Assembly: GCA_945860295.1 (NCBI GenBank)
Contig: CAMAQH010000004.1
Coordinates: 62,001-126,000 of the forward strand
Length of the DNA stretch: 64,000 bases
Direction: 5' to 3'
DNA from: Prosthecobacter debontii
GTDB taxonomy: Bacteria; Verrucomicrobiota; Verrucomicrobiia; Verrucomicrobiales; Verrucomicrobiaceae
Positions 33,532 to 62,159 of the stretch are shown in pieces (the stretch's first letter is position 1; every line of letters begins with the position of its first letter). The position numbers and the translations under genes are program-made. Under the pieces are notes generated by a model, which was not told the DNA's origin, ran no database searches, and saw only the letters and a list, made by a program, of their open reading frames with translations.

Positions 33532-34326
33532 CTAAGCCACTTTGAATAGTCGTCGGTAATTCTTCCCGATCTGCACCTTCATTTCCTCCATGGGCAGGCC
33601 TCGCACTTGAGCCAGCAGTTCATAACTCACGCGCAGATTAGCCGGGTGATTGATCGACTTGCCTTCATGCATCAAGGGATGCGGATTCAACTCGTCAGGC
33701 GGCCACATGTCGGGAGCGTCAGTTTCGGCGAGGAGGCGGTCGAGGGGAACGGATTTGAAGACGGCGAGCTTCTGCACTTTGCGGGCGTGACCGAAGTAGG
33801 GTGAGAGCGAGAAGTAAGCGCCCAGCTTCACAAAGCCAGGAATCATCTCGACCGGACCACCATAGGAGTGCAGTAGGAATCCCCGCTCAGGGAGGCGTAA
33901 GGTACGGAGCTGCTCATCAAGTAGGCCCCAAGCTCGCAGGCAGTGAATGGAGGCAGGGCGGTGGAGATCAGTCGCGAGTTCGAGCTGCCAGCGAAAGCAC
34001 TCGATCTGCGCGTCGATGTCTGGATTCTCGATCCAACGATCGAGTCCGATCTCACCGACAGGTGCATTCGGGAAAGCCATCAAGTATCTGTAGAGATGCT
34101 CCTGCCAGGCGGACGTGCGCTCTTTGACATACCAGGGATGCAGGCCAAACGATGGGCGAACCCAAGGATAAGCGCGAGCAAGCCGAGCCACATCTTCCCA
34201 GTCATCTTCGGCGGAACCATTCACGACAGATTCGCTCAGGCCGGTCTCCGGCAGTATCTGCATGATGGCCTCGCGCTCAGCATCGAGTCGAGCGTCTTGC
34301 AGGTGATTGTGTGCGTCGTAGAGCAT
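33532..34326 (-). CDS. TatD-family metal-dependent hydrolase
   Basis: From ATG 34326 the protein is 264 residues; a start at 34368 is possible but adds only basic residues. TatD motifs are complete: DAHNHL (two His ligands, about residue 4), FGLHPWYV, VGEIGLDRW (Glu), IHCLRAWG (His), LHSYGG (His) and LLAETDAPDMWP (Asp). The family comprises cytoplasmic two-metal hydrolases acting as 3'-5' DNases or on D-amino-acyl groups. The sequence is short for TatD and the loops are atypical, so a narrower specificity is possible. It is transcribed towards the RidA-like gene. Confidence 0.87.
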   Translation of the reverse strand: MLYDAHNHLQDARLDAEREAIMQILPETGLSESVVNGSAEDDWEDVARLARAYPWVRPSFGLHPWYVKERTSAWQEHLYRYLMAFPNAPVGEIGLDRWIENPDIDAQIECFRWQLELATDLHRPASIHCLRAWGLLDEQLRTLRLPERGFLLHSYGGPVEMIPGFVKLGAYFSLSPYFGHARKVQKLAVFKSVPLDRLLAETDAPDMWPPDELNPHPLMHEGKSINHPANLRVSYELLAQVRGLPMEEMKVQIGKNYRRLFKVA

Positions 34327-34397
34327 GATCAGGGCGGTCTTTTTTGGACTATTCTTATATGATGGCAAATCTCTGACCAGGGATCGAAGTACTCACC

Positions 34398-34499
34398 ATG
34401 GACGCCAATTTCCAAGCTTTCATTGGTGGGCGCTACACCCATGATCCCGATGCCGCAAACCGAGCCGTCGCCAGCATCAATGCAAACGACAACCCTTGA
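34398..34499 (+). pseudogene. Fragment copied from the barrel domain of the multicopper oxidase gene
   Basis: The 33-codon frame from ATG 34398 reads DANFQAFIGGRYTHDPDA and then NRAVASIN. It matches residues of the multicopper oxidase near 39353-39430 (ANFQAFIGGRFTNDADA, NRAVAGIN) at 21 of 26 positions, and nothing else of that gene remains. It abuts the broken small gene at 34496, mirroring the order of the intact genes at 37574-39952 with most of the oxidase and the spacer deleted. It is therefore a relic of a former duplicate. Confidence 0.7.
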
Positions 34500-34733
34500 A
34501 AACAAAACTCATCACACTCTTCATTACCGCCTTGCTCGGCCTTAGCCTCAATGCTGCGGACGTGTAACCTTACCCTCTCAAAAACTGCCAGGTCAGCGAC
34601 AATAAGTACGGAAAAATTGGCAGAGCGATCACCGAGGTTGACGAAAACTAGGACATCAATTTCTGCTGCAAGTCCCTTCATCAAGATGTTTGAGGCGAAC
34701 CCGGCCAAGTATCTCAGCAAGCTGCCGAAGTAA
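34496..34733 (+). pseudogene. Broken copy of the small Cys-rich exported protein gene
   Basis: The sequence parallels the intact gene at 39716-39952 along its whole length. The signal region KTKLITLFITALLGLSLNAA differs at 3 of 22 positions (counting the next two residues), and both end in KLPK before TAA. An in-frame stop (TAA) follows AADV, another (TAG) follows later, and a frameshift breaks the CCK region. TTG 34496 stands in place of the ATG. It is a clear decayed paralog. Confidence 0.8.
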
Positions 34734-34788
34734 CTCGATCATGACGCATGGTGAAGCCGCAACGGCACATGATTTGAAAATAATCAAA

Positions 34789-34842
34789 GGGGTTGGGCTC
34801 GGGGTGGAGTTGCAATGCATGAACGCCTGTGATGGCGCTCAT
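34789..34842 (+). promoter_or_regulatory. Shared promoter-like block and hairpin, copy 1
   Basis: GGGGTT (34789-34794) and TGGAGTTG (34805-34812) are followed by the hairpin ATGAACGCC/GGCGCTCAT (34819-34827, 34834-34842; one mismatch). Blocks and spacing are the same as in copy 3 at 37183-37238. The block precedes the exported Cys-rich protein gene by 27 bases. The arrangement suggests a promoter of the locus ECF sigma factor with a leader hairpin. Confidence 0.55.
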
Positions 34843-34869
34843 CAAAAAACCAAAAAAATAGACCCCATC

Positions 34870-35118
34870 ATGAAAACGAAACTCACCCTCCTCAGCGCTA
34901 TCATCCTCGCAGGCATCGGCTCCACCTTGGCCATCGCGGGTCAGGAAGATCAGGCTGCTGCGGCTGCCAAGCCTGCTGCCAAGAGCTGCTGCGCCATGAA
35001 AGAAACAGGGCCTGCGACTCCCGCCGACAAAGACGCAGCCAGCGGCATGTCCTGTCACTCCAACGCACCTGTGGCGAAGGAAGTCACGGCGGCGAAACCC
35101 AAGGGCTGCTGCAAGTAA
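34870..35118 (+). CDS. Small exported Cys-rich protein
   Basis: From ATG 34870 the protein is 82 residues; the longer frame upstream runs through the relic genes and was not used. A Sec signal (MKTKLTLLSAIILAGIGSTLA) is followed by a low-complexity, Ala/Lys-rich mature part with three Cys-containing sites: KSCCAMKE, MSCHSN and GCCK at the end. No named family is recognised. The cysteines with Met and His suggest metal, probably copper(I), binding in the periplasm. It carries the shared upstream block of the locus and lies just before the anti-sigma/sensor/sigma genes. A terminator-like hairpin follows. Confidence 0.65.
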   Translation: MKTKLTLLSAIILAGIGSTLAIAGQEDQAAAAAKPAAKSCCAMKETGPATPADKDAASGMSCHSNAPVAKEVTAAKPKGCCK

Positions 35119-35138
35119 TGGGGCACCCGCCCTTCGCG

Positions 35139-35168
35139 ACCCGTCAGGCATCGGATGACCTGGCGGGT
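35139..35168 (+). terminator. Hairpin after the small Cys-rich protein gene
   Basis: ACCCGTCAGG (35139-35148) pairs with CCTGGCGGGT (35159-35168) over 10 positions with one G-T pair and a 10-base loop. It lies 20 bases after the stop at 35118 and is followed by TGTGTT. It probably ends that transcript; the next gene starts at 35204. Confidence 0.5.
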
Positions 35169-35203
35169 TGTGTTCGGTCAATCATCCGGCACTTTCACCT
35201 GTC

Positions 35204-35527
35204 ATGAATAACGACGACCTCCACCTTTTGATCCGCCAGACGCAGCCGAAGCCTGAGTTCTCAGCCTCGTTCCAGCGTGAAGTCTGGGCGCGCATCGCCG
35301 TCGCTGAACAGCGCTCATGGTCCGCCCAGTGGCGGACATGGAGCGAGTCCCTGTTCCGCTGGATCGCCCAGCCCGCGCCTGCTGTGGCGGTCGTCACAGC
35401 GATGCTGGTTCTCGGTGCCGGCCTCGGAAGCATGACGTCCGTTAACAATGAGCCCGCCAATTTGCGCACAGCCTACATGGCCTCCATCAACCCTCTGACC
35501 GCGGCCCATGTCGCGATGCCGAAATGA
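35204..35527 (+). CDS. Single-pass membrane protein, anti-sigma-like (CnrY position)
   Basis: From ATG 35204 the protein is 107 residues. A cytoplasmic part of about 55 residues starting NNDDLHLLIRQTQPKPEF is followed by a membrane helix (VAVVTAMLVLGAGLGSM, about 61-78) and a short outer tail. This is the build of CnrY-type anti-sigma factors, which hold an ECF sigma at the membrane; sequence identity to CnrY is not evident. The gene overlaps the metal-sensor-like gene by 4 bases (ATGA), and the sigma gene follows, giving the cnrYXH order. The role is inferred from this order. Confidence 0.65.
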   Translation: MNNDDLHLLIRQTQPKPEFSASFQREVWARIAVAEQRSWSAQWRTWSESLFRWIAQPAPAVAVVTAMLVLGAGLGSMTSVNNEPANLRTAYMASINPLTAAHVAMPK

Positions 35528-36009
35528 AACGCGGCCTCTGGATTTTAGCGGCGGCAGTGCTGGCCGGTCTTGCGGGCTTCATAGTCACCCGCAGTCAATG
35601 CGACTGCACCATCCCTGAAAAAATAGCGGCCCATGACCGCCAGTCGCAACTACCAGAACTCGAATGGCTGCGCCAGGAGTTCAAGCTGACGGATGAGCAA
35701 TTCGCCAAAGTCTCCGAGCTGCATCTGGCCTATCGCCCCACCTGTGAAGATCTTTGTGCCAAGGTGATGGCTTCACAGACGAAGATGAAAAAGCTGGTCG
35801 GTGTCGGAACCCAAGTGTCACCGGAACTCAAAGCCGCCCTGCAAGAGCACGCCGCCCTGCATGTGGAATGCCAGACCGCGATGCTTAACCATCTTTATCA
35901 AACGGCGACCTGCCTGTCGCTCGATCAAGCGCGGCACTACCTGGATGCCATGCTGCCGCAGGTCATTGAGATGGTCATGGAACCTGAAACCTCGCACCCC
36001 GGTCACTGA
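35524..36009 (+). CDS. Periplasmic metal-sensor-like protein (CnrX/Spy-type)
   Basis: The 161-residue protein is anchored by an N-terminal helix (about residues 5-21) and has a helical periplasmic domain with the LTxxQ-like FKLTDEQFAKVSELHLAYR. This is the pattern of heavy-metal resistance proteins of the CnrX/ZraP/Spy group. Possible ligands are CDC (about 26-28), CEDLC (about 76-80), two further Cys, and a C-terminal run of Met and His (MLPQVIEMVMEPETSHPGH). Cys is richer than in nickel-sensing CnrX, which would suit copper. It overlaps the anti-sigma-like gene by 4 bases and lies 15 bases before the sigma gene. Confidence 0.72.
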   Translation: MKRGLWILAAAVLAGLAGFIVTRSQCDCTIPEKIAAHDRQSQLPELEWLRQEFKLTDEQFAKVSELHLAYRPTCEDLCAKVMASQTKMKKLVGVGTQVSPELKAALQEHAALHVECQTAMLNHLYQTATCLSLDQARHYLDAMLPQVIEMVMEPETSHPGH

Positions 36010-36024
36010 GCCCGATCTGCACGC

Positions 36025-36594
36025 ATGGACTTCACCCAAGATGCCGATGTCGTGCTCATGCAGCGACTCGCTGACGGCGAGGATCTGGCCCTGAACGAAC
36101 TCATGTCCCGCTGGCGCGAGCGCGTGGCCGCCTTTCTCCTGCGCATGGTCGGCGATCATGCCACGGCCATGGATCTCGTGCAGGAGACGTTTGTGCGCCT
36201 CTACACCAGCCGACACAGCTACCGGCCCACCGCCGCCTTTTCGACCTACCTGTTTCACATCGCCACGAATCTGGCCCGCAGTCATGCGCGCTGGAAAGGC
36301 AGGCACCCGACCGTGCCGATGGAGGATGAGCAGGGCACACTCATTCATGAGCCGGTCGATCCGCAGTTGCAGCCTGATGAAGCGGCTACCCTGCATGAGA
36401 AGACAGCCCTGGTGAACCGTGCCATCGCCGCCCTGTCCGCCGAGCTGCGTGAGGCGCTGCTGCTCTTCACCGTGGAGGACATGGGCCATGCCGAGATCGC
36501 CGCCACACTTGGCTGCTCGCCAAAGGCCATCGAAGTCCGCATCTACCGCGCCCGGCAACTGCTCAAAGAAGCTGTCGCCAAACTCTCGATGTAG
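36025..36594 (+). CDS. ECF-type RNA polymerase sigma factor (CnrH position)
   Basis: The 189-residue protein has sigma region 2 (MVGDHATAMDLVQETFVRLY, about 47-66) and region 4 (ALSAELREALLLFTVEDMGH, then AEIAATLGCSPKAIEVRIYR and ARQLLK), joined by a linker without extra domains. It is an extracytoplasmic-function sigma factor of the length usual for this group. It is the third gene of the control unit after the anti-sigma-like and sensor-like genes. It is therefore likely released when periplasmic metal, probably copper, is sensed, and then drives the copper genes downstream from the shared promoter blocks. The regulon is inferred. Confidence 0.88.
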   Translation: MDFTQDADVVLMQRLADGEDLALNELMSRWRERVAAFLLRMVGDHATAMDLVQETFVRLYTSRHSYRPTAAFSTYLFHIATNLARSHARWKGRHPTVPMEDEQGTLIHEPVDPQLQPDEAATLHEKTALVNRAIAALSAELREALLLFTVEDMGHAEIAATLGCSPKAIEVRIYRARQLLKEAVAKLSM

Positions 36595-36608
36595 AAGAGA
36601 GGCACAGT

Positions 36609-36660
36609 CGGGTTACTCCCCATAGCAGTGCCGACGCATGACATGAAGCGTGTGCTTCGT
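36609..36660 (+). promoter_or_regulatory. Shared promoter-like block and hairpin, copy 2
   Basis: The block begins CGGGTTACT (36609-36617) and has GCATGAC (36636-36642) one base closer than in the other two copies. A hairpin ATGAAGC/GCTTCGT (36643-36649, 36654-36660) follows with a 4-base loop and one G-T pair. It lies 34 bases upstream of the Met/His-rich protein gene. The conserved elements are looser than in copies 1 and 3. Confidence 0.45.
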
Positions 36661-36694
36661 CTTCAGCTCAACCCGCTGAAGCCACCCCACGACT

Positions 36695-37165
36695 ATGAAA
36701 ACACAAACACCGACAAACCTGCTCATTCGCTCCAGTCTCGCCCTGACCCTGGCCTTCGCCGTTCTGACACCTCTCCTATCTCCATCTGCCGAGCCTGCCG
36801 ACGAGAAGAAGATGGACAGTCAAATGATGGAACACTGCGAGAAGATGAAGGAACAGAAGAAGGAGATGAAGGCCGACATGAAGGCTCAGGATGACGATCT
36901 CACCGCGCACGCGGCCAAGATGAACAGTGCTGCGGCTGACAAGAAGGTGGACGAGGTGGCCGCTCTGGTCACTCACATGCTGGAGCAACGAATCTCCATG
37001 GATGCGCGTAAAGCCAAGATGGAAGAGGAGATGATGGAACACATGATGAAACACATGAAAATGGGCAAAAAGTCCATGGCGAAGTGCCCCATGATGAAAG
37101 ACATGAAGGACATGGATCACAAACCAACCGATGCGGACAAAGAGCCAGCAGAGGCGAAGAAATAA
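36695..37165 (+). CDS. Exported Met/His-rich protein, probable copper binder
   Basis: The 156-residue protein has a Sec signal (residues 1 to about 32, ending SPSAEP) and a strongly helical, charged mature part. Met, His and Cys are concentrated at QMMEHCEKMKEQKKEMKADM and MMEHMMKHMKMGKKSMAKCP. Such Met/His clusters are typical of periplasmic copper(I) binders such as PcoE or CopA-type Met motifs; no named family is certain. It follows the sigma gene under a promoter-like block. A decayed paralog lies at 41153, directly before the copper ATPase gene. Confidence 0.7.
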   Translation: MKTQTPTNLLIRSSLALTLAFAVLTPLLSPSAEPADEKKMDSQMMEHCEKMKEQKKEMKADMKAQDDDLTAHAAKMNSAAADKKVDEVAALVTHMLEQRISMDARKAKMEEEMMEHMMKHMKMGKKSMAKCPMMKDMKDMDHKPTDADKEPAEAKK

Positions 37166-37182
37166 CCGCCGAGAAATTTAGA

Positions 37183-37238
37183 GGGGTTACTGCTTCGCTG
37201 GAGTTGTATTGGATGACCGCCTATTTTCAGGCGGTCAT
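37183..37238 (+). promoter_or_regulatory. Shared promoter-like block and hairpin, copy 3
   Basis: GGGGTT (37183-37188) and TGGAGTTG (37199-37206) are followed by a perfect hairpin ATGACCGCCT/AGGCGGTCAT (37213-37222, 37229-37238, 6-base loop). Spacings of 16 bases between the two blocks and 14 from the second block to the hairpin equal those in copy 1 at 34789. It lies 22 bases upstream of the small Cys-rich gene at 37260. It could also act as a terminator of the gene before it, though no T-run follows. Confidence 0.6.
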
Positions 37239-37259
37239 TAATACCAAAACAAACAACTC

Positions 37260-37526
37260 ATGAAACTCACCCTCGCTCTCCTCTCCAGCCTGCTCTTCGG
37301 AGTCGGCATTGCCCCCGCCGCTGATGCCAAAGACACCGGCGTGCCTGCCAGCTATCCGCTCAAGAAATGCATCATCTCAGACGAAGAACTTGGCGGGATG
37401 GGCAAGGCCTTCAAAGTGACCTATGAGGGCACAGATGTGTATCTGTGCTGCAAGTCCTGCCTGAAAGACTTTAATAAAGAACCTACCAAGTATGTGGCTC
37501 TGGTGAAGGCTGCAGTGAAAAAGTAA
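37260..37526 (+). CDS. Small exported metal-binding-like protein with CCKxC site
   Basis: The 88-residue protein has a Sec signal (MKLTLALLSSLLFGVGIAPAADA). The mature part contains YPLKKCIISDEELGGMGK and LCCKSCLKDFNKEP. The same frame of residues (YPLKxC, S, ELG, MGK, CCKxCxKxF, P-x-KY) recurs in the protein at 39716 and in the broken copy at 34496. It resembles the zinc/copper-binding YHS and TRASH-type domains, with Cys pairs placed to bind one metal ion. A periplasmic copper carrier is a reasonable inference. It is 48 bases upstream of the multicopper oxidase gene and probably cotranscribed. Confidence 0.7.
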   Translation: MKLTLALLSSLLFGVGIAPAADAKDTGVPASYPLKKCIISDEELGGMGKAFKVTYEGTDVYLCCKSCLKDFNKEPTKYVALVKAAVKK

Positions 37527-37573
37527 TCTTCAAAGCTCGTCTGAGCTTAGCGACGGCTTGCTCCAAGCGATCC

Positions 37574-39676
37574 ATGATCATGCACCTTCCCCTTGCCTTC
37601 ATCTTCTCGGCTCTACTGCTGCCTGCGGCAGTCTCAGCATGTGATGCCTGCAAAAAGAAATCGATCACCGGTCCGGTGGTTGAGTACGATCTCTACATCG
37701 CCGAGCAAACGGTCAGTCCGGCGGGAAAGAAGGTGCATGGATTCACCATCAATGGTGGCATCCCAGGGCCGACGCTGCGCTTCCGCGAGGGAGACTTCGC
37801 GCGCATCCGCGTGCACAATCAACTCAAGAGCGAGACGACCTCGACGCACTGGCACGGCCTGCTTTTGCCCAACGAACAGGATGGCGTGCCGCATGTGACC
37901 ACGCCGCCGATCCTGCCGGGAACGACGCACACCTTTGAGTTCGAGCTGCGGCACAGCGGCACTTATTGGTATCACTCGCACACCCATTTACAGGAGCAGA
38001 ATGGCATTTTTGGCAGCATCGTCATCACGCCTAAAGGCGGCGAGCCAGTGAAGGCGGATCGCGAGCAGATGCTGGTCTTCTCTGACTGGACGAACACCGA
38101 TCCCATGGAGGTCATGCGCATGTTGATGCGCGGCAGTGATTACTTCGGCCTCATGCGCAGAAACTCGCAGTCCATCCTCGGTGCCTGGCAGCGTGGCAAT
38201 TTGAAGGACTACTTTTCGCGCGAGTGGGATCGCATGATGCCGATGGACATCTCGGACGTGGGCTATCACGCCTTTCTCGTCAATGGACAGCGCCAGACGC
38301 GCATTGAGGGCGAACCCGGCGATCGCGTGCGACTGCGGATCGTGAATGCCTCGGCAGCGACTTATTTTTATTTGAACTCGTCTGCCGGACCGATGACCAT
38401 CGTGGCGGCTGATGGTCCTGCTGTGCAACCGGTGAAGGTAGATCGCTTCCTGATGGCCATCGCGGAGACCTATGATGTGATCGTCACCATTCCCGCCAGC
38501 GGTCAGTATGAGCTGCGTGCCACGGCCCAGGATGGCAGTGGTCATGTTTCTGCCGCCTTTGGTTCGGGCGAGCTGCATACCGCCACAGATCCGCCGAAGC
38601 CCAATCTTTATCAGATGGACGAGATGCTAAACCTCGCGCTGGAAGAGCAGGAAGACGATGTGCGTGCCTCATTGAAGCTGCCACGGCCAGGATCGCCGTA
38701 TCGCGTGCTGCGGTCGGTGAAGGACACCACTTTGCCTGCAAAGCTGCCACGTCGGAAAATCACGATGCATCTCACGGGCGACATGAATCGCTATGTCTGG
38801 TCCTTTGATGGCAAGACCATCGCGCAGGAGCCCTATGTGATGATCAAGCAAGGCGAAATCATCGAGTTGGAACTCAGCAACGACACGATGATGCATCACC
38901 CGATTCATCTGCACGGGCACTTCTTCCGCCTGCTCATGGGTAATGGCGCGCGCTCACCGCTGAAGCACACCGTCGATGTCCCGCCGATGAGCAAGCGTAC
39001 GGTCGAGTTCGAGGCGAATGAAGCGAAGGACTGGATGTTCCACTGCCACATTCTTTATCACATGATGAGCGGCATGGCCCGCGTGTTCCGCTATGAAGAT
39101 GAGGTCGCCGCCGCGCCACCAGCTGTCTCAAAGCCGGTGGATCACAGCCTTCATCACGCCACCGGTCTCGGAGAGCACAACCACGACATGGCCTATGTCT
39201 GGGGCGCGGCCTCGATCCAGTCACACATGAGCGAAGGGCTGCTCACCTGGATGAATCCGAAGAACGATCTCCTGCTCTCCTGGGAAGTCGGCTGGCAGGG
39301 CGTGGACAATCCTGAATACGAGATCGACGCGCTCTACCAGCGCTACTTCAACGCCAATTTCCAGGCCTTCATCGGCGGTCGCTTCACCAATGATGCCGAT
39401 GCCGAGAACCGTGCTGTCGCTGGCATCAACTACCGCCTGCCGCTCATGGTCTGGGCCAATGTCAGTCTCGACAGTGAAGGCGATGCGCGCTTCACGCTCG
39501 CCAAGCGTTTCCAGCTCACGCCACGTCTCGGCGTCTGGGGTCGCGTGGAGTATGACACGAACACCCGCTGGGAGTGGACCACTGGCGCGGACTTTACTCT
39601 CACACGCAGCATCTCGATCATCGCCCAGTATCACTCGCAGTTTGGCCTCGGTGCCGGAGTCCTCATCCGCTTTTGA
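37574..39676 (+). CDS. Multicopper oxidase fused to a CopB-like outer-membrane barrel domain
   Basis: The 700-residue protein has a signal ending AAVSAC, a good lipobox, so it may be lipid-anchored at Cys23. Residues about 30-520 are a CopA-type multicopper oxidase with all four copper motifs: THWHGLLLP, YWYHSHTHLQEQ, HHPIHLHGHFF and MFHCHILYHMMSGM, including the Cys and axial Met of the type 1 site. After a His-rich linker, residues about 539-700 form a CopB-like barrel segment with alternating strands, ending GLGAGVLIRF with a terminal Phe typical of outer-membrane proteins. In other bacteria CopA and CopB are separate. Cu(I) oxidation in the periplasm is the expected role. Confidence 0.85.
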   Translation: MIMHLPLAFIFSALLLPAAVSACDACKKKSITGPVVEYDLYIAEQTVSPAGKKVHGFTINGGIPGPTLRFREGDFARIRVHNQLKSETTSTHWHGLLLPNEQDGVPHVTTPPILPGTTHTFEFELRHSGTYWYHSHTHLQEQNGIFGSIVITPKGGEPVKADREQMLVFSDWTNTDPMEVMRMLMRGSDYFGLMRRNSQSILGAWQRGNLKDYFSREWDRMMPMDISDVGYHAFLVNGQRQTRIEGEPGDRVRLRIVNASAATYFYLNSSAGPMTIVAADGPAVQPVKVDRFLMAIAETYDVIVTIPASGQYELRATAQDGSGHVSAAFGSGELHTATDPPKPNLYQMDEMLNLALEEQEDDVRASLKLPRPGSPYRVLRSVKDTTLPAKLPRRKITMHLTGDMNRYVWSFDGKTIAQEPYVMIKQGEIIELELSNDTMMHHPIHLHGHFFRLLMGNGARSPLKHTVDVPPMSKRTVEFEANEAKDWMFHCHILYHMMSGMARVFRYEDEVAAAPPAVSKPVDHSLHHATGLGEHNHDMAYVWGAASIQSHMSEGLLTWMNPKNDLLLSWEVGWQGVDNPEYEIDALYQRYFNANFQAFIGGRFTNDADAENRAVAGINYRLPLMVWANVSLDSEGDARFTLAKRFQLTPRLGVWGRVEYDTNTRWEWTTGADFTLTRSISIIAQYHSQFGLGAGVLIRF

Positions 39677-61924: not shown

Positions 61925-62159
61925 GGCTGACAAGCGGACCGTAAGCTTTTTGAGCCAGTTCTTTGCCCAGCAACCGCTCCGCGAGCAGGCGATGAAGCTC
62001 CTGTGGAGGCAACTCAGGATGTTGTTGATACAGTGAACTCCGAGTCAGCTCACGCACTGAACGGCTCCAGCCGAGCGCGAGGCTCAATCGCCTAGCAGGC
62101 GTCATCGCCTGAAGAGCACGGAGGCGCATGGTTTCGGCAATTGGAGTGGTGTCGTTCAT
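61917..62159 (-). CDS. Small helical partner of the nucleotidyltransferase-like protein
   Basis: From ATG 62159 the protein is 80 residues, all helical and basic: TMRLRALQAMTPARRLSLAL, then SRSVRELTRSSLYQQHPELP and PQELHRLLAERLLG. No family name is certain; the L-x-x-x-M-T-P-x-x-R-L pattern recurs in small proteins next to transferase genes. Its stop overlaps the next start by 8 bases, so the two are translationally coupled. It is the probable antitoxin or regulator of the pair. The divergent oxidoreductase gene starts 101 bases away. Confidence 0.65.
   Translation of the reverse strand: MNDTTPIAETMRLRALQAMTPARRLSLALGWSRSVRELTRSSLYQQHPELPPQELHRLLAERLLGKELAQKAYGPLVSHG

Follow-up and report, generated by a model that had tools for sequence, protein, structure and literature searches.

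This work concerns a copper locus within a 64,000-nucleotide (nt) stretch of Prosthecobacter debontii DNA (contig CAMAQH010000004.1, forward-strand positions 62,001 to 126,000), referred to throughout as the window. The locus is best read as a metal-sensing system of the CnrYXH kind, with an extracytoplasmic function (ECF) sigma factor and two ECF promoters that carry conserved 5′ hairpins; the probability of this reading as a whole, protection of the mRNA included, is put at roughly 0.72. Promoters 1 and 2 flank a compact regulatory unit, which comprises a small protein of 82 residues (P82), a putative anti-sigma factor, a CnrX-like sensor and the ECF sigma factor. The four predicted promoter boxes are:

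34788 to 34794, forward strand: −35 box of promoter 1, AGGGGTT (pattern searches of the window, the genome and relatives; matrix).
34806 to 34811, forward strand: −10 box of promoter 1, GGAGTT (pattern searches of the window and relatives; matrix).
37182 to 37188, forward strand: −35 box of promoter 2, AGGGGTT (pattern searches of the window and the genome; matrix).
37200 to 37205, forward strand: −10 box of promoter 2, GGAGTT (pattern searches of the window and the genome; matrix).

The motif and its spacing can be read directly from the sequence. GGGGTT begins at 34789 and 37183, TGGAGTTG follows 16 bases on (34805 and 37199), and ATGA lies 14 further (34819 and 37213), as described in a first-pass annotation of this DNA. 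That annotation also held that the loops and flanks of the two copies differ, and this is borne out: the spacer letters are unlike, and the 60 nt upstream share 25% identity. In the genome-wide search that it had proposed, GGGGTT-N10-TGGAGTTG occurs exactly at these two places only among 4,676,447 bases. Allowing spacers of 8–12 adds one match on a different contig, with no control matches. With two mismatches the pattern becomes unspecific (43 matches, against 19 for the reversed control), and up to three mismatches within the window give 8 matches where 4.3 are expected. A matrix of the module, built without six spurious-looking sites, the site L074:3606 and both window sites, scores the two copies at 32 and 21. 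A scan of 34300–37600 for sigma-70 promoters found none.

In relatives, the core of the module is AGGGGTT-N11-GGAGTTGCA. The form AGGGGTT-N11-GGAGTTG stands upstream of seven inspected P82 homologues, and likewise of many YHS genes that follow the ECF gene. A search of 48 genomes of the genus with spacers of 9–12 gave 28 matches in 15 genomes, the spacer being 11 every time, and none for the control; a variant that admits GGCGTT (GGM) brings in a sixteenth genome, G059. Relatives of the ECF sigma factor at 72% identity or more are found in 16 of the 48, and these are the same 16 genomes (one relative is a 91-residue fragment at a contig end, 92% identical). Neither the strict nor the GGM pattern occurs in the other 32. 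Across the order, 21 of 288 genomes match, again with no control match, and in each of the six matching genomes outside the genus, one or more of the sites adjoin the homologous operon.

The link to one sigma clade is also seen in a second set of 79 named ECF loci, 56 of which contain one or more sites of the general form. Sorted by ECF identity, such sites occur in 26 of 26 loci at 65% or more, in 28 of 37 at 47–64% and in 2 of 16 at 46% or less. The general form matches 106 times in these loci, with 92 matches on the same strand as the ECF gene, and the reversed pattern matches twice. Many of the named loci (L134 onward) lie on contigs that also belong to the genus genomes, which means that the sets overlap and are not independent of each other. 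A relaxed box pattern, used solely for gathering candidate sites, is unspecific (58 matches versus 34 for its reversed control, genomes without this ECF clade included).

Since the module occurs in every one of the 16 genomes that have the ECF clade, is absent from the remaining 32, adjoins the ECF operon and varies with the sigma factor, its boxes are well-supported predicted promoters of the local ECF sigma factor. The first-pass annotation had proposed such promoters, each with a leader hairpin, at three sites; the proposal stands for two of them and fails for the third, which is treated below.

The change of boxes with the sigma factor is apparent in a sister ECF clade, about 50–62% identical, where the module is mostly AGGGTTT-N11-GGTGTT with unchanged spacing. 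Sister-type boxes stand before anti-sigma, oxidase and target genes, and some loci mix the two types, for example AGGGATT with GGTGTT. Nine alignment columns separate 15 ECF sequences of one clade from six of the other, although two of the columns concern gaps or the start residue. One difference, V171 to T, is in region 4, at the alignment position of the serine in the Escherichia coli sigma-E stretch VRSRIFRAR. Another, S86 to N, is in region 2, four residues past the invariant N82; the aligned sigma-E counterpart of N82 is the asparagine of AVNTAK. We take these sigma-E residues to lie at the −35 and −10 DNA. With two natural sigma and promoter versions that have diverged jointly, this residue-to-base reading is directly testable. 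At L045:9115-13312 (genome G027), both sigma types are neighbours on a single contig, and each has its own version of the boxes close by; this contig amounts to a natural test of promoter specificity inside one cell.

Each window promoter is followed by an inverted repeat:

34819 to 34842, forward strand: hairpin 1, arms ATGAACGCC/GGCGCTCAT with one A·C mismatch (−11.2 kcal/mol, z −2.1).
37213 to 37238, forward strand: hairpin 2, arms ATGACCGCCT/AGGCGGTCAT, a perfect 10-bp stem with a 6-nt loop (−22.0 kcal/mol, z −6.6).

Folding a longer stretch of leader 1 gives a z of only −0.98, against −2.1 for the shorter one. Downstream of the stem, both leaders are A- and C-rich, and no Shine–Dalgarno sequence was seen by eye. 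Hairpin 1 contains an ATG, which was considered as a conserved start codon and rejected: it is in frame in some relatives and out of frame in L046 and L054. The window has no Rfam match at gathering thresholds, and a known RNA family was likewise rejected.

A plain alignment of 37 modules fails to register the stems. Because unequal loop lengths defeat such an alignment, pairing was assessed by permutation: the arm at a set distance past the −10 box was compared with the next 16 nt of its own site and with those of other sites. In all, 117 distinct sites from the fetched loci were classed by the product of the next gene, ignoring the hairpin, as 85 target, 22 anti-sigma and 4 oxidase sites, with 6 set aside. 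The choice of these 6, as probably spurious, was made by hand before pairing was counted, as was the transfer of three sites to the anti-sigma class on grounds of product or context; the doubtful L074:3606, L044:3496 and L064:10331 were kept among the targets. Sites that shared the same 70-nt core entered the count a single time.

Conserved pairing is clear at the targets. A paired 4-base arm starting 8–12 nt past the GTT is present at 37 of the 47 non-redundant sites, compared with 20.5 (standard deviation, SD, 3.0) after permutation, a count reached in 0 of 2000 permutations. For 5-base arms the figures are 23 of 47 versus 8.2 (SD 2.5), also 0 of 2000, and the excess is highest at offset 12 (25 versus 8.3). 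Anti-sigma promoters have no pairing excess (5 of 18 versus 5.5 permuted), and the three non-redundant oxidase sites are too few to inform the test. A perfect stem of at least four pairs occurs in 34 of the 47 targets, with 28 different arms and loops of 3–11 nt. The structure is kept while the sequence varies, and its reference point is the promoter: among 33 sites, the distance from the −10 box to the stem start has an SD of 2.4 nt, and that from the stem end to the ATG an SD of 21.7 nt. The earlier argument for selection on the RNA stem was that the stems of the two copies in the window compensate each other. That argument does not hold for the pair itself, in which an A·C mismatch faces a C–G pair, but its conclusion does hold across the relatives.

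At ECF promoters the transcript is expected to start about 5–8 nt past the GTT, and by this anatomy the stem would begin only a few nt from the 5′ end of the mRNA. Selection keeps the structure of the hairpin, at a set distance from the promoter, on small target genes, where a 5′-terminal stem-loop could shield short mRNAs from decay and so yield metal-binding products in quantity. Protection of the mRNA is favoured because ompA, for one, has a stabilising 5′ stem-loop of similar build; taken alone, it is the most likely role for the hairpin, at about even odds. A role during transcription itself, in pausing, promoter escape or the choice of start site, ranks next and is unlikely. The constant distance from the stem to the promoter, rather than to the start codon, would suit it, but the stem lacks the sequence conservation that a pause signal would need and is missing at sister-clade anti-sigma promoters with the same boxes, neither point being decisive. 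Less probable again is control of translation, for instance by a thermometer or a metal-responsive switch. Although the stem lies in the leader of metal-defence genes, its distance from the start codon is as variable as given above, and no Rfam family was matched in the window.

Instead of forming an RNA hairpin, the inverted repeat could serve as the DNA operator of a further, dimeric regulator at the transcription start, a reading slightly less probable still than translational control. The repeat lies where a repressor could block initiation, and hairpin 2 is a perfect palindrome; against this, one protein would need one sequence, and the 34 stems have 28 different arms, which are unlike even on different targets of one genome, as in L049 at 8521, 10397 and 10890. 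It is barely credible that the boxes look alike by chance or through recent duplication of a single upstream region: nearby copper genes are duplicated and a decayed oxidase/YHS end lies just 5′ of promoter 1, but chance is contradicted by the absence of control matches in 48 and in 288 genomes, and duplication by the 25% upstream identity and by loops, spacers and arms that have diverged around unchanged boxes and spacing.

Several observations weigh against the favoured reading, in which the ECF sigma factor uses both promoters and the stem protects the mRNA. The genomes are related, and hence 16 out of 16 does not represent 16 independent events. Hairpin 1 of the window is imperfect. Of the 47 targets, ten have no paired 4-base arm in the test and 13 are without a perfect 4-bp stem; exported-looking targets in L049, L051 and L054 are among those that fall short. 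The contrast with anti-sigma promoters is mostly a sister-clade one, as 20 of the 22 anti-sigma sites carry sister-type boxes. For this reason the pairing test was rerun within box types: targets with sister-type boxes pair at 12 of 15 sites versus 8.3 (146 of 5000 permutations), or 10 of 15 versus 4.3 with 5-base arms (2 of 5000), and targets with GGA or GGC boxes at 25 of 32 versus 14.0 (0 of 5000). Several anti-sigma leaders are only 24–29 nt long, and the tested stretch there enters the gene. Finally, the window yielded no anti-sigma promoter free of a hairpin, probably because the anti-sigma gene of this clade shares the P82 transcript.

The regulatory unit and the genes that follow it are arranged as follows:

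34870 to 35118, forward strand: P82, a small, exported-looking, Cys-containing protein of 82 residues (homologues in relatives).
35136 to 35171, forward strand: stem-loop between the P82 and anti-sigma genes, a possible terminator or attenuator (−25.0 kcal/mol, z −3.9).
35204 to 35527, forward strand: putative anti-sigma factor (position; conserved partner gene).
35524 to 36009, forward strand: CnrX-like periplasmic metal sensor (Pfam Metal_resist and LTXXQ, weak, below cut-off).
36025 to 36594, forward strand: ECF sigma factor of 189 residues (Sigma70_r2, 1e-16; Sigma70_r4_2, 2.4e-14).
36695 to 37165, forward strand: Met-rich, exported-looking protein.
37260 to 37526, forward strand: YHS-domain, exported-looking protein of 88 residues (YHS, 9.5e-07, just under cut-off).

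The product of the gene at 36025 has sigma regions 2 and 4 and no region 3, the definition of an ECF sigma factor. Neither P82 (above cut-off) nor the putative anti-sigma factor has a Pfam match; the latter contains one hydrophobic stretch, as judged by eye. For the sensor, a profile search of PDB sequences gives NccX and CnrX as the top matches, both weak (E 0.0011–0.013). Its residues H67, C74, C78, E115 and H123 are invariant in 17 of 17 aligned sequences, which suggests a thiol-containing metal site. The nickel/cobalt ligand set of CnrX is unlike the conserved C74, C78, H67 and H123, and the site formed by these four is perhaps one for copper. The genes that follow the ECF gene encode, in order, a Met-rich, a YHS, a multicopper oxidase, a second YHS, a BNR-like (weak) and a P-type ATPase protein. 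Just 5′ of promoter 1, at 34402–34733, are remnants of oxidase and YHS gene ends that have decayed and contain stop codons; they are 81–82% identical to the intact downstream copy.

In 36 stretches with a homologous operon collected from relatives, the gene order anti-sigma, sensor, sigma is for the most part that of the window. The named records belong to Prosthecobacter and other Verrucomicrobiales and are largely metagenome bins. Many relatives have a repeat 5′ of the anti-sigma gene comparable to the stem-loop at 35136–35171. A terminator scan of the region did not call this stem-loop, which could stop most P82 transcripts, with a few reading on into the anti-sigma gene.

The mechanism proposed for the locus has a periplasmic sensor that would detect metal, probably copper, whereupon the membrane-bound anti-sigma factor would free the ECF sigma factor. 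The freed sigma factor would direct RNA polymerase to AGGGGTT-N11-GGAGTTG promoters. Promoter 1 would drive P82 and the regulatory genes downstream, promoter 2 the YHS gene and the copper genes downstream, and transcripts would begin just before or at the short hairpin. In this scheme we infer sigma binding, the transcript start, copper as the signal and mRNA protection.

Genes for the anti-sigma factor, the periplasmic sensor and the ECF sigma factor follow one another in the locus as they do in CnrYXH and NccYXH of Cupriavidus metallidurans. Beyond the sensor matches to NccX and CnrX, a PDB search with the ECF profile reaches CnrH at 3e-18, although structures of the sigma-E and sigma-H type score better; sigma-E-type ECF factors thus resemble the window sigma more closely than CnrH does. 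The neighbours differ as well: a multicopper oxidase, YHS proteins and a P-type ATPase stand here where Cnr has a resistance-nodulation-division (RND) efflux pump, and among the copper-type neighbours examined there are no linked RND efflux genes for nickel or cobalt. The system would work like CnrYXH but is not classed as a Cnr system. In Cupriavidus, according to PMC9045368, two sigma-dependent promoters precede the regulatory and efflux genes of CnrYXH; PMC4803752 is a further source. CorE of Myxococcus xanthus is likewise a copper-linked ECF sigma factor with its own promoter motif, but the account of it (PMC3107203) gives CorE-type sigmas a Cys-rich domain and no linked anti-sigma factor, whereas in the window an anti-sigma-like gene is linked and the sensor is a protein of its own. 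A review (PMC7509114, citing Emory et al. 1992) counts stem-loops among the features that protect mRNA. As in an ompA-type element, a short stem-loop is expected here near the 5′ end of the mRNA, and then a mostly unpaired leader; unlike that type, the stem described here recurs across a sigma regulon, at a near-fixed distance from the promoter and with free sequence.

The site originally listed as a third, looser copy of the module belongs elsewhere:

36606 to 36625, forward strand: box of another motif, AGTCGGGTTACTCCCCATAG (site 36610).

Scored with the module matrix, site 36610 reaches −39, as opposed to 32 and 21, and it matches GGGTTANWCCCCATNG instead; it is rejected as a module member on both grounds. 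The first-pass annotation had placed modules before three exported-protein genes. Judged by eye from their N-termini, the products at 34870, 36695 and 37260 all look exported, but the module before the gene at 36695 falls away.

The motif GGGTTANWCCCCATNG is widespread, with 104 matches in 27 of the 48 genus genomes and no control match. In 89 distinct contexts, the box is mostly preceded by (A/G)GT(A/C), and a TAnnnT-like element follows about 36–41 nt 3′ of it (67 of 89 have A at +37, and 61 of 89 have T at +41). In 25 of the 89, exactly 49 nt separate the box start from the first long ATG frame, a spacing at which the mRNAs of these 25 genes would be nearly leaderless. The box often precedes exported-looking proteins and a small, apparently CsbD-like protein that starts MTTLEIKGDWN; that the box marks a stress regulon is a guess. 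Site 36610 likely belongs to this motif, although it has CT where 85 of 89 contexts have A in second place, and its gene start is 85 nt away.

The kinds of component assembled at the copper locus are known; the combination is new. Among the papers surveyed on copper and ECF sigma factors, ECF classification and promoter motifs, transcription starts in Verrucomicrobia and stem-loop leaders, no title or abstract opening describes this promoter module. The module supplies a predicted promoter for a family of metal-sensing ECF sigma factors in Verrucomicrobiota, and the sequences place the regulon of the copper locus across Verrucomicrobiales. A broader proposal is possible, though the odds are against it: the sigma regulon may have its own RNA signature, in which most high-output targets keep a promoter-fixed hairpin of free sequence, the anti-sigma promoter with the same boxes goes without one, at least in the sister clade, and the design has been kept across Verrucomicrobiales as sigma factor and boxes co-diverged. 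If this is true, structural genes would give a large, long-lived output and the sigma factor's own brake a modest one; in the window clade, the brake would instead lie behind the terminator-like stem after P82. A hairpin tied to the promoter in this way suggests that a stress regulon may set mRNA stability gene by gene.

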